Of a stretch of DNA of 64,000 nt, positions 45,200 to 47,922 are shown piece by piece. This DNA is from Acidisoma cellulosilyticum (GTDB taxonomy: Bacteria; Pseudomonadota; Alphaproteobacteria; Acetobacterales; Acetobacteraceae). Made by a program: the position numbers and the translations under genes. Under the pieces are notes generated by a model, which searched no databases, was not told the origin of the DNA, and saw only the letters and a list, made by a program, of their open reading frames with translations. The first letter of the stretch is position 1, and each line of letters begins with the position of its first letter. The DNA lies in contig NZ_JAESVA010000001.1 of NCBI RefSeq assembly GCF_020621385.1, positions 62,001-126,000 of the forward strand, read 5' to 3'.

Positions 45200-46144
45200 T
45201 CAGGCGAAGACGATACGTGGGAAGTAGAAGCTGACGATCCAGTTCGGCATATCGACAATGGCACTGATGCGCAGGTCGCCTGCTACCGAGCAGAGCATAT
45301 AGGCGTCCATCGCCGACAGGCCGTGCTGGCGGCCCAGCAAATCGATCATGCGGGAGAGCGCGTCCTTGGCGCCCTGCATCAAATCCGGCCCGATTCCCGT
45401 CGTCACCTCATAACCAGCCGCGTCCAGATGCCGCGTCACCGGCCCGGGCGTTGTGAAGCGTGGCGTTTCCAATGGCGTCTGCTTGATCAAATCCAGCGTC
45501 AGGGTCAGGTTCATCGGGCTTTCGATCGCGGTGCCGCAGACCTCGCCGTCACCTTGGGCCGCGTGACCGTCACCGATCGAGAACAATGCGCCGGCAACCT
45601 CCACCGGCAGATAAAGCTCCGTCCCGGCGGTCAAATCACGGATATCCATATTGCCGCCGACCCGACGCGGCGGGACGATGGAATGCAGCCCAGGCTCCGC
45701 CAAAGCCACACCGATCGTGCCGGCGAAGGGTTTCAGCGGCACACTTGCCTGATCCGAGAACAGTGCCGGCACCATGCTGTCCGGGTCATAGGACCAGATC
45801 TTCAGCGCCGGATCCGGAAATTGGTCGGCGAGCAATCCGAATCCCGGAATATTGGCGGTCCAGCCGAAGCCTGACGGCGTGAAATCGTGGATGCTGACCT
45901 TCAGGATGTCGCCGGGCTCCGCCCCTTCGACAAAGACCGGTCCGGTCACCGGGTTGATGAGGCCGAAATCGAGCGTCGCGACATCACCCACCGTGCTCTG
46001 AGCCGTCAGCTGACCGGCGGAGGCATCCTTGCATTCGAAAGCGATGGTGCGGCCGGGCTCCGTCCGCAGCACGGGTGCGAAGCTGTTATCCCAGCCGAAA
46101 TGGTGCTGGGCCGCATGGATGGTAAAGTCACAGTTCCTGCACAT
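45200..46144 (-). CDS. Acetamidase/formamidase family protein
   Basis: A 314-residue amidase of the FmdA/AmdA family. Markers are HHFGWDNSFAPVLRTEPGRT near residue 13, VFVEGAEPGDILKVSIHDF near residue 70, VPPRRVGGNMDIRDLTAGTE near residue 155 and LPVEVAGALFSIGDGHAAQGDGEVCGTAIE. It hydrolyses short amides such as formamide to ammonia and acid, giving nitrogen. It is cytoplasmic. No amide transporter is adjacent. Confidence 0.92.
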   Translation of the reverse strand: MCRNCDFTIHAAQHHFGWDNSFAPVLRTEPGRTIAFECKDASAGQLTAQSTVGDVATLDFGLINPVTGPVFVEGAEPGDILKVSIHDFTPSGFGWTANIPGFGLLADQFPDPALKIWSYDPDSMVPALFSDQASVPLKPFAGTIGVALAEPGLHSIVPPRRVGGNMDIRDLTAGTELYLPVEVAGALFSIGDGHAAQGDGEVCGTAIESPMNLTLTLDLIKQTPLETPRFTTPGPVTRHLDAAGYEVTTGIGPDLMQGAKDALSRMIDLLGRQHGLSAMDAYMLCSVAGDLRISAIVDMPNWIVSFYFPRIVFA

Positions 46145-46254: not shown

Positions 46255-46563
46255 GTTCGCGTAGCTCAGCAGGATAGAGCACAGGATTCCTTGTTGTAAC
46301 TGGGCGTCGTGAGGGGAAACCACACGACGGATCCGCTCAAAGTCGGGGAAAGCTTGGGGTCGCCGATGACCTTGTGCCAATCCCGAGCCAAGCCCGGCCC
46401 GAAAGGTCCGGGAAGGTGTAGAGACTGGATGGGTGGCGCCTAAGGGCTTCGGTCTAAGGCGAAGGGACAGTCCAGACCACGAACGTCTCCCGGTCGGGCG
46501 GCGGCGGCGAAAGTCGAAGTGGTAAGAATCCTGGGGCCGTGGGTTCGAATCCCGCCGCGAACA
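46255..46563 (+). tRNA. tRNA-Arg(CCU) interrupted by a group I intron
   Basis: Exons 46255-46291 and 46527-46563 join to a 74-nt tRNA. Acceptor stem GTTCGCG/CGCGAAC, D-stem GCTC/GAGC, anticodon stem CAGGA/TCCTG with loop TTCCTAA and anticodon CCT at 46289-46291, T-stem GTGGG/CCCGC with loop TTCGAAT, discriminator A. CCA is not encoded. The split falls right after the anticodon. It reads AGG codons. Confidence 0.95.
46292..46526 (+). ncRNA. Group I (IC3-like) self-splicing intron, 235 nt
   Basis: Follows an exon-terminal U and ends in G. IGS GGG (46302-46304) pairs with exon CCU, including the U-G wobble. P2 is CGTCGTG/CACGACG with a GGGGAAACC loop. GCTTGG (46352-46357) pairs with CCAAGC (46388-46393) in P4-P6. 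GGTGTAGAGACTGG (46415 on) and GACAGTCCAG (46466 on) are the R and S core elements forming P7. GGCGAAAGTC caps P9. The core strings are close to those of the Azoarcus tRNA-Ile intron. No homing endonuclease frame. Confidence 0.93.
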
Positions 46564-46799
46564 TTTCCTGCCCTATGGCTGTCGCATGAGATTGGATTTG
46601 GAATAACGCGATCGCCGCAATGGCTTGATCGTTTCAAAGCACAAGGGTGAGACAGAAGCCGCCTAAGGGTGAAACCCTAGCCAAGACGGCAATCACACTT
46701 TCTCTGCACAAACAAAACCTATCAGTACAACTGTAGCGTCCGAGCGCAGGGGCGTGTAGAAAGAACAGGTCTGTCTCTGGTTCACAGACGACGTTGCGG

Positions 46800-46825
46800 C
46801 TGGAGGAGATTTGCGGCTCTCCCAG
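46800..46825 (+). repeat. Stem-loop with TTTGCGGC loop, copy 1
   Basis: Stem GGAGA (46805-46809) with TCTCC (46818-46822), extended by CTG/CAG across a 2-nt bulge. Loop TTTGCGGC at 46810-46817. Same loop as copies 2 and 3, with a different stem sequence. Confidence 0.75.
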
Positions 46826-46834
46826 CGAAGGATT

Positions 46835-46866
46835 GGTGCGGGGAGGTTTGCGGCACTCCCCGCACC
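46835..46866 (+). repeat. Stem-loop with TTTGCGGC loop, copy 2
   Basis: Stem GGTGCGGGGAG (46835-46845) with CTCCCCGCACC (46856-46866), 11 perfect pairs, one G-A mismatch at the loop edge, loop TTTGCGGC at 46847-46854. Nine bases separate it from copy 1. Confidence 0.8.
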
Positions 46867-47105
46867 TGGTTCAACGACGTAGCAGCCTATTGACCCGTCG
46901 GTGCAAAGCACCTTGCGTAGTTTAGCAGAACAAATCCTAAGAAAACTAGACCCATTTAAGGTTAGTAATTCAGGTTTGTCGGCTAAACTGAGATTGAGAC
47001 CTCATTATTTTTGTTTATCTGAACGCAAGGTCTCATCTGCTGGGGAGCGATAAGCCCCCTGCCCGGAGCCTTCCGACAAGGAAGGCCCGTCACACCGTCC
47101 CGGTG

Positions 47106-47351
47106 CTAAGCCAACTTCCGGCGGCTGCTCTGACGGCGGATACCGGCGCGGCTATGCCCCCATAGCTGATAATATTCGACGGCAATGCCACCAGCAGGTG
47201 CGAGGTCAATCTCGGGCCGCTCGGAAAGCTCGCTCTCCCAGCCAGGGATTGTCATGACGGCGGGATCACAGCTCTCATCATCCTGACCCTGTAAGAAGGG
47301 CGCACAGATGCGAAGCTCGAAGATCCCATCCTTGTAGGTTGTAACTTTCAT
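47106..47351 (-). CDS. Small hypothetical protein
   Basis: An 81-residue frame preceded by a strong GAGGAGGGGCTC ribosome site before its ATG. The protein (VTTYKDGIFELRICAPFLQG, later PEIDLAPAGGIAVEYYQLWG) ends in a basic tail. No signal peptide, membrane segment or recognised domain. It stands alone in the hairpin-rich tract after tRNA-Arg. A GGAAGG hairpin follows its stop and may terminate it. Confidence 0.55.
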   Translation of the reverse strand: MKVTTYKDGIFELRICAPFLQGQDDESCDPAVMTIPGWESELSERPEIDLAPAGGIAVEYYQLWGHSRAGIRRQSSRRKLA

Positions 47352-47424
47352 GAGCCCCTCCTCGCGGATTGTGCGGACTAACGGGATAGCGACGGATCGT
47401 CAGTTCAGTCTTGTCGTAGAGCGC

Positions 47425-47456
47425 GAGGCGGAAAGATTTGCGGCTCTTCCCGCCTC
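47425..47456 (+). repeat. Stem-loop with TTTGCGGC loop, copy 3
   Basis: Stem GAGGCGG (47425-47431) with CCGCCTC (47450-47456), one A-C mismatch, then AAGA/TCTT closing the loop TTTGCGGC at 47437-47444. It lies upstream of the small minus-strand gene at 47106-47351, in a 218-bp stretch without a gene. Confidence 0.75.
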
Positions 47457-47569
47457 GGTTTGGGCCGGTGACTTACCTAACCAGTGGCACCGCTGGGATT
47501 AACCATACTCATTCAGTAGGAATAAGAGCAAGCAGAAAATTCATGCTCTCGTAAAGGTCATCAGCAGGA

Positions 47570-47743
47570 TCAGGTCAGCTTGATGCCGAGGCAGAATCCG
47601 CGGAGCAGAATATGCACCCCGCCGCCTTTGGGAGCTTTGCGGATTGCAAAAAAAGGCAGTTTCCCGCCGTCCCGCCACTGATCAGCGTACGAAGGAAGAC
47701 CTTTGACGATTGTCAGCCGGCGGGAAGAAAACAGCAGACGCAT
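47570..47743 (-). CDS. Possible small hypothetical protein
   Basis: A 57-residue frame (RLLFSSRRLTIVKGLPSYAD, then GGKLPFFAIRKAPKGGGVHI). The composition looks protein-like and basic, but no ribosome site precedes either the ATG at 47743 or the alternative at 47767. Not recognised; it may be a relic or chance frame. Confidence 0.3.
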   Translation of the reverse strand: MRLLFSSRRLTIVKGLPSYADQWRDGGKLPFFAIRKAPKGGGVHILLRGFCLGIKLT

Positions 47744-47922
47744 GGCAGGGGACTCGCGGTGCCGCATAAAACGGCCCTAACCATAGGCCCCGCAAAAATG
47801 CCGTCTGAGCCCTAAATAGGGCGCCTATCGCTAGGACAGCTCGTTTACTGCCGCGTAACGACTCGCAGCTTCCTTTTCCTCTGCTGCGAGTGCGGCCCGG
47901 TCGGCATTGGCTCCGCCGGCAG

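Follow-up and report, generated by a model that had tools for sequence, protein, structure and literature searches.

The closest described relatives of the locus reported here are group I introns in alphaproteobacterial tRNA-Arg(CCU) genes, of which a 1992 study reportedly found one in Agrobacterium; Paquin et al. are said to have described others from alphaproteobacteria in 1999. Azoarcus has a group IC3 intron in tRNA-Ile(CAU), with the typical core strings and with GAAA loops capping both P2 and P9. Publications on the family date back to the 1990s (PMC7717549, with references to Reinhold-Hurek and Shub 1992 and to Paquin et al. 1999). According to that paper, the Bartonella bacilliformis intron BbgpI, also in tRNA-Arg(CCU), is able to self-splice in vitro and is spliced in vivo as well, and its host tRNA was found by tRNAscan-SE only once the intron had been removed. 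The authors of tRNAscan-SE 2.0 state that the tool was not built to find such introns (PMC8450103). Cyanobacterial group I introns likewise lie in a tRNA anticodon loop, though of another tRNA; introns of only 22 to 49 nt in cyanobacterial tRNA-Arg, -Gly and -Lys have been reported as group I (PMC5733544), an assignment that we doubt given their length.

The window analyzed is a 64-kb stretch of DNA from Acidisoma cellulosilyticum, a bacterium related to the acetic acid bacteria, and in it we describe a new intron of this known family that standard annotation tools overlook. A tRNA-Arg(CCU) gene at 46255-46563 is cut between U36 and A37 by a group I intron (Table 1). The initial annotation had read this stretch, from its letters alone, as a complete tRNA with a 235-nt insert immediately after the CCU anticodon, and both halves of that reading held: the boundaries are exact, and when the two 37-nt exons were joined in a script, ARAGORN called tRNA-Arg(cct) with the acceptor, D, anticodon, and T stems all paired. 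It had also warned that automated tRNA callers might miss or mis-bound the gene, and the gene is indeed missed or misnamed. ARAGORN found zero tRNAs over the whole window and made no call on the unspliced gene; with introns allowed, it misnamed the gene tRNA-Leu(AAG) with a 235-nt insert. Because the Rfam tRNA model misses the split gene too, the tRNA would be listed as absent, and its recognition thus returns to the host genome a tRNA that annotation would have denied it. The false protein frame of which the initial annotation warned exists on the minus strand, with zero Pfam matches, as expected for a false frame, and there is no plus-strand frame of 60 codons within the intron.

Table 1. 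Features of the split tRNA-Arg(CCU) gene, in window coordinates
Feature	Position	Strand	Basis
5' exon of tRNA-Arg(CCU), tRNA positions 1-36, ending with anticodon CCU	46255..46291	+	ARAGORN on joined exons
Group I intron, 235 nt	46292..46526	+	RF00028 match; exons abut exactly at this point in 23 of 60 genomes
Internal guide GGG, pairing with exon CCU (46289-46291) as P1, U.G at the 5' splice site	46302..46304	+	36 of 36 aligned introns, a count partly built in, as 20 rows came from a search pattern with both CCT and GGGCG
P2 hairpin, GAAA tetraloop at 46316-46319	46305..46329	+	9 of 9 pairs changed on both sides (helix 5)
P3 5' strand, partner 46431-46436	46333..46338	+	Paired in 100% of cells, with two-sided changes in 3 of 6 pairs (helix 6)
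P4 (46343-46347 with 46382-46386) around P5	46343..46386	+	P4 invariant in 36 of 36
P6/P6a	46387..46417	+	Helix 9 invariant; helix 10, 7 of 7 pairs changed on both sides
P7 5' strand, partner 46468-46472	46423..46427	+	Paired in 100% of cells, with no variation in 4 of 5 pairs (helix 11)
P8 hairpin	46437..46461	+	86.4% of cells paired (helix 12)
P9 hairpin with GAAA tetraloop	46505..46516	+	4 of 4 pairs changed on both sides (helix 15)
Intron terminal guanosine	46526..46526	+	Direct reading; 132 of 132 relatives, though the script's pattern required G
3' exon of tRNA-Arg(CCU), tRNA positions 37-73	46527..46563	+	ARAGORN on joined exons; empty sites
False reading frame over intron end and 3' exon	46440..46637	-	Frame list; Pfam search empty

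The window intron shares its tRNA and its core with the introns of Agrobacterium and Bartonella and, like BbgpI as described in PMC7717549, is flanked by CCT. Other Bartonella loci carry an intron at the same site; aligned over 225 columns, one of these introns and that of the window have 69% identity. Ours differs from the known alphaproteobacterial tRNA-Arg(CCU) introns in its host family, its length of 235 nt, and a TGTT...AACT variant of the P1 extension. It is also alike in sequence to alphaproteobacterial tRNA-Leu(UAA) introns. To the Azoarcus intron it is similar in the core strings and the GAAA loops on both P2 and P9, and it differs in tRNA and guide; a split tRNA-Ile(CAU), the host type of the Azoarcus intron, does occur in a genome from another class of the phylum (G360).

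Every group I element named in the initial annotation (a guide facing the exon CCU, a P2 with a GAAA loop, the conserved R and S core strings, the P7 pairing, and a terminal G) was located. The layout is that of a group I intron, with a P3/P7 pseudoknot and with P4-P6 and P8 around a conserved core, and the core strings equal those of the relatives. The Rfam check proposed for the intron had a divided outcome. RF00028 matched 46279-46488 end to end (model positions 1-253; E, 5.1e-8 in a 451-nt search), and the match scored 37.1 bits, below the gathering score of 50, so that a default search of the window is empty. We ran the same model on 20 related loci, the window included (16 Arg, 2 Thr, 1 Lys, and 1 Leu hosts; L001, L032-L039, and L041-L051); none reached 50 bits, and 9 gave an E value of 0.001 or less. 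For this reason we regard the gathering score as a curated cut-off that misses this branch and do not take it as defining membership, and for the same reason the annotation gap for such introns is likely to be general. Folding energy was set aside as a discriminator: the intron was indistinct from its shuffles (z, -1.23), 12 of 100 of which were equally low.

We collected 132 split tRNA-Arg(CCU) loci, 112 from a pattern scan of named genomes (which returned at least 118 stretches), 17, including the window, from whole-genome searches, and 3 from IMG/VR; some genomes are present twice, with 126 different genomes among 129 loci. Among the matches listed, the 112 named loci fell into Acetobacterales (68), Hyphomicrobiales (13), Rhodospirillales (12), and Rhodobacterales (12), with 7 assigned to no order. 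From the 105 less similar introns we chose 36 by hand for spread, including that of the window, with 20 of the 36 coming from the pattern scan, and aligned them. Standard pairs formed in 92.7% of 3,182 cells, and 52 of 91 pairs had changed on both sides, versus 28.3 in shuffles; none of 500 shuffles reached the observed pairing measures. Sliding the partners by 1 to 3 columns lowered pairing to 36 to 44%, a control that leans toward the structure because the structure was drawn from one row, that of the window. P1, P4, P6, and four of the five P7 pairs are invariant, so that covariation is uninformative on them, and P5 aligns poorly (helix 8 pairs in 56.1% of cells).

In 121 of the 132 introns, the second intron base is paired with the base that stands two positions ahead of the GGG, as A-U in 51, G-U in 47, and G-C in 23, and the window intron is of the G-C type. 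At the P10 place opposite A38, there is U in 107 of the 132, C in 24, and A in 1; the window has an A38 x C mismatch. With this C in the P1 extension the A38 pair is lost, and the window copy thus seems to swap the P10 pairing for a firmer P1 extension.

We searched 60 genomes, that of the window included, with the window DNA. Empty sites, at which the tRNA halves abut exactly (split at query positions 37 and 273), were found in 23 of them, 18 in the same family and 5 outside it, and ARAGORN called every one tRNA-Arg(cct). The intron was present in 16 of the 36 same-family genomes, and 18 had an uninterrupted tRNA-Arg(CCU); the matches in the remaining two, G016 and G023, are other tRNAs, a tRNA-Lys in the case of G023. 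Two more of the introns match those of Swaminathania salitolerans and Ameyamaea chiangmaiensis without a difference. This patchiness, together with the related introns on plasmids and in a phage (see below) and an intron tree, weakly supported, in which the genus is not kept together, would fit a recent lateral arrival into the genus by phage, plasmid, or homing. We consider such an arrival unlikely. All five genomes searched from the window's genus carry the intron. When mapped on an RpoB tree covering 30 of the 36 genomes in the family (G008, G011, G015, G016, G021, and G030 gave no RpoB row; frames were chosen by similarity, the longest frame not being RpoB in several genomes), the intron needs 4 changes versus 10.4 with shuffled labels, a value as low as 4 occurring in none of 500 shuffles; G023 was scored as intron-free in this count, and leaving it out still gave 4. 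Intron and RpoB distances correlated across 15 genomes (r, 0.57; none of 5,000 permutations as high). The upstream flank, with an acetamidase/formamidase gene at 45200-46144, also matches upstream of the tRNA in three of the four congeners; in the fourth, it matches weakly and elsewhere. From the RpoB-tree changes, the distance correlation, and the common flank, inheritance within the family appears to be largely vertical, with some gains or losses, which bears on the question of vertical or lateral origin posed by the initial annotation; its suggested kinship with other alphaproteobacterial tRNA-Arg(CCU) introns was also borne out by the intron tree described below. Downstream of the tRNA, window positions 46564-47900 contain few convincing genes and at most one 67-nt match among the congeners' loci; the region could be a site of insertions.

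We also asked whether the host depends on this gene. The host genome (98.5% complete) has 52 tRNA matches, 51 of them above the cut-off. The split gene is not among them, and when all 52 were read with ARAGORN, none was a second tRNA-Arg(CCU), in keeping with the initial annotation; the Arg anticodons present are tct, acg, and ccg. (One cluster, at G000:C2:713987-714516 [L024], groups a tRNA-Pro, a low-scoring tRNA-Met, and an odd tRNA-Asp(atc)-like match.) Since tRNA-Arg(UCU) could read AGG by wobble, we do not claim that the tRNA-Arg(CCU) gene is essential. The presence of tRNA-Arg(tct) and the low RF00028 scores would also suit a dead intron, with the interrupted tRNA no longer made and AGG left to tRNA-Arg(UCU). 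That reading is very improbable, given that all arms of the tRNA are intact, that the core strings equal those of relatives, and that intron and tRNA have been kept together in five of five genus genomes searched. A spacer removed by proteins, or never removed, is scarcely credible against the group I core, the covariation, and the guide pairing, and we found no point in its favor.

The intron is real and very probably working, and we are highly confident in reading it as a group I intron of the self-splicing type in tRNA-Arg(CCU), with a GGG guide on the anticodon, exact splicing to an AGG-reading tRNA, and mostly vertical descent in Acetobacteraceae. The anatomy, exact boundaries, conservation, covariation, empty sites, and distribution behind this reading were observed in the present analysis, and splicing is what we infer from established group I chemistry and from the self-splicing Bartonella relative. 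P7 is the guanosine-binding site of group I introns. On the precursor RNA, the intron would fold so that the GGG guide pairs with the anticodon CCU as P1; a P7-bound guanosine would cut after U36, which is paired with the first G of the guide; and U36 would then attack behind the last G of the intron, joining U36 to A37. The released tRNA would read AGG. Within Acetobacteraceae the intron would now and then have been gained or lost.

The intron matches without Arg exons in the 60-genome search sit in other tRNAs. We ran a covariance model of the Arg gene, with strict filters, on two sets of genomes, 190 from the class and 299 from the phylum. At least 28 of the 190 class genomes carry a related tRNA intron by hand reading, with the following minimum numbers of genomes per host: Arg(CCU), 5; Leu(UAA), 12; Lys(UUU), 6; Lys(CUU), 2; Thr(GGU), 3; Thr(CGU), 1; and Leu(CAA), 3. 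At least four class genomes hold two related introns each. In the phylum set, 26 of 299 genomes matched at an E value of 1e-28. Some of these matches, from other classes, have Ile(CAU) or Arg(UCU) as host, and one is an Arg(CCU) intron outside the class (G415), which stands apart from the alphaproteobacterial ones in the intron tree. In Pseudomonadota, the hosts thus read by hand comprise nine isoacceptors (Arg CCU/UCU, Leu UAA/CAA, Lys UUU/CUU, Thr GGU/CGU, and Ile CAU) and four adjacent cut sites, after position 33, 34, 35, or 36. These identities are one author's unblinded hand reading, adopted because an automatic splice-site finder gave unstable anticodons; the Thr(CGU) and Arg(UCU) hosts were each read at a single locus, a contig end truncates the second site of G110, Thr(GGU), and the Leu(CAA) of G208 has a poor 5' exon.

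By eye, the guide is GGG, GAGU, GGAG, GAGUC, or GCC, depending on the host, and the distance from the GGG of the window to loop L2 is that seen for most guides in other hosts. When pairing was tested within the guide region only (a broader region was found to be too wide), at least 3 bases paired with the intron's own exon in 53 of 53 located introns of 8 site types; a further 8 of the 61 loci were not located and were left out (L399, L367, L376, L401, L406, L411, L415, and L413). The mean own-exon pairing of 3.75 exceeded all 5,000 permutations (mean, 3.19; highest, 3.57). The own exon scored above the average for exons of other types in just 39 of 53 introns, because GGG can pair with many exons. 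The best guide stretch lay at the usual offset of 12 to 14 in 47 of 53, the program having picked a neighboring stretch for four of the five Thr(GGU) rows and two others. One tRNA-Leu(CAA) intron (L401, in G227) appears to follow a C as the last base of its 5' exon, in which case the splice site would have C-G rather than U.G.

Leaving out 17 of 78 loci that were not located, we removed the guide region from the other 61 introns and built a tree of them. The host tRNA needs 9 changes on this tree, versus 27.1 when shuffled and a least possible 6, from which the introns appear mostly to stay with their tRNA and to switch rarely. Of the 29 Arg(CCU) rows, 28 form one group (support, 94/74). Very long branches in some rows, and a bootstrap that had yet to converge, leave single host switches unsure.

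Related introns also occur outside chromosomes. An intron match was found in 1,267 of 72,556 plasmid records, none covering more than 80% of the query. One plasmid, pCTX-M3 (NC_004464.2, positions 2433-2729; L201), has an unannotated tRNA-Leu(UAA) with a related intron, read by eye, that adjoins aac(3)-IId and an AAA ATPase gene, presumably TmrB-like; the same neighborhood surrounds the intron match in all four plasmid regions opened (L201, L421, L422, and L423). Over 299 nt, the pCTX-M3 locus has 85.6% identity with a locus from alphaproteobacteria (L361), a likeness that hints at the origin of the plasmid segment. In Gordonia phage Daredevil (NC_048021.1, positions 913-1150; L202), a related 238-nt intron splits a tRNA-Lys(UUU), with no annotated RNA feature; according to a 2014 review, all phage introns then known sat in protein genes (PMC3984707). 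At least 120 viral-contig stretches in IMG/VR (L081-L200) hold the same intron core. Among the matches listed there, no tRNA could be read at 73 of 124 core matches, and a recurring flank that resembles a protein gene is common to 34 of the 73; because these matches are mixed, we claim phage carriage in a tRNA for the Gordonia isolate only.

We offer tentatively, at somewhat below even chances, a wider reading in which all of these would be one under-annotated Pseudomonadota superfamily of anticodon-loop ribozymes, moved among nine isoacceptors by rewriting of the guide at a near-fixed distance from L2, and found also in a phage tRNA and on plasmids. Since tRNA callers and the Rfam threshold overlook such introns, some tRNAs reported as absent would then be annotation artefacts. 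Among the open-access titles and abstracts listed as matches, none concerned group I introns in proteobacterial tRNA-Thr or tRNA-Lys or beside tmrB. A set of introns that share a chassis and differ in their guides would be a natural experiment in ribozyme retargeting, and the value of the window locus lies in correct annotation and in the entry it gives to this broader, apparently under-described set of retargeted introns. Two loci of the survey are unusual in form. In G028 (L049), a partial repeat of its own 5' half precedes the split tRNA-Thr(GGU). G044, which has a well-formed split tRNA-Leu(UAA), also contains an apparently decayed intron copy (L420; G044:C1:2943000-2943500) with a 3' tRNA-Leu exon and no clear 5' exon.
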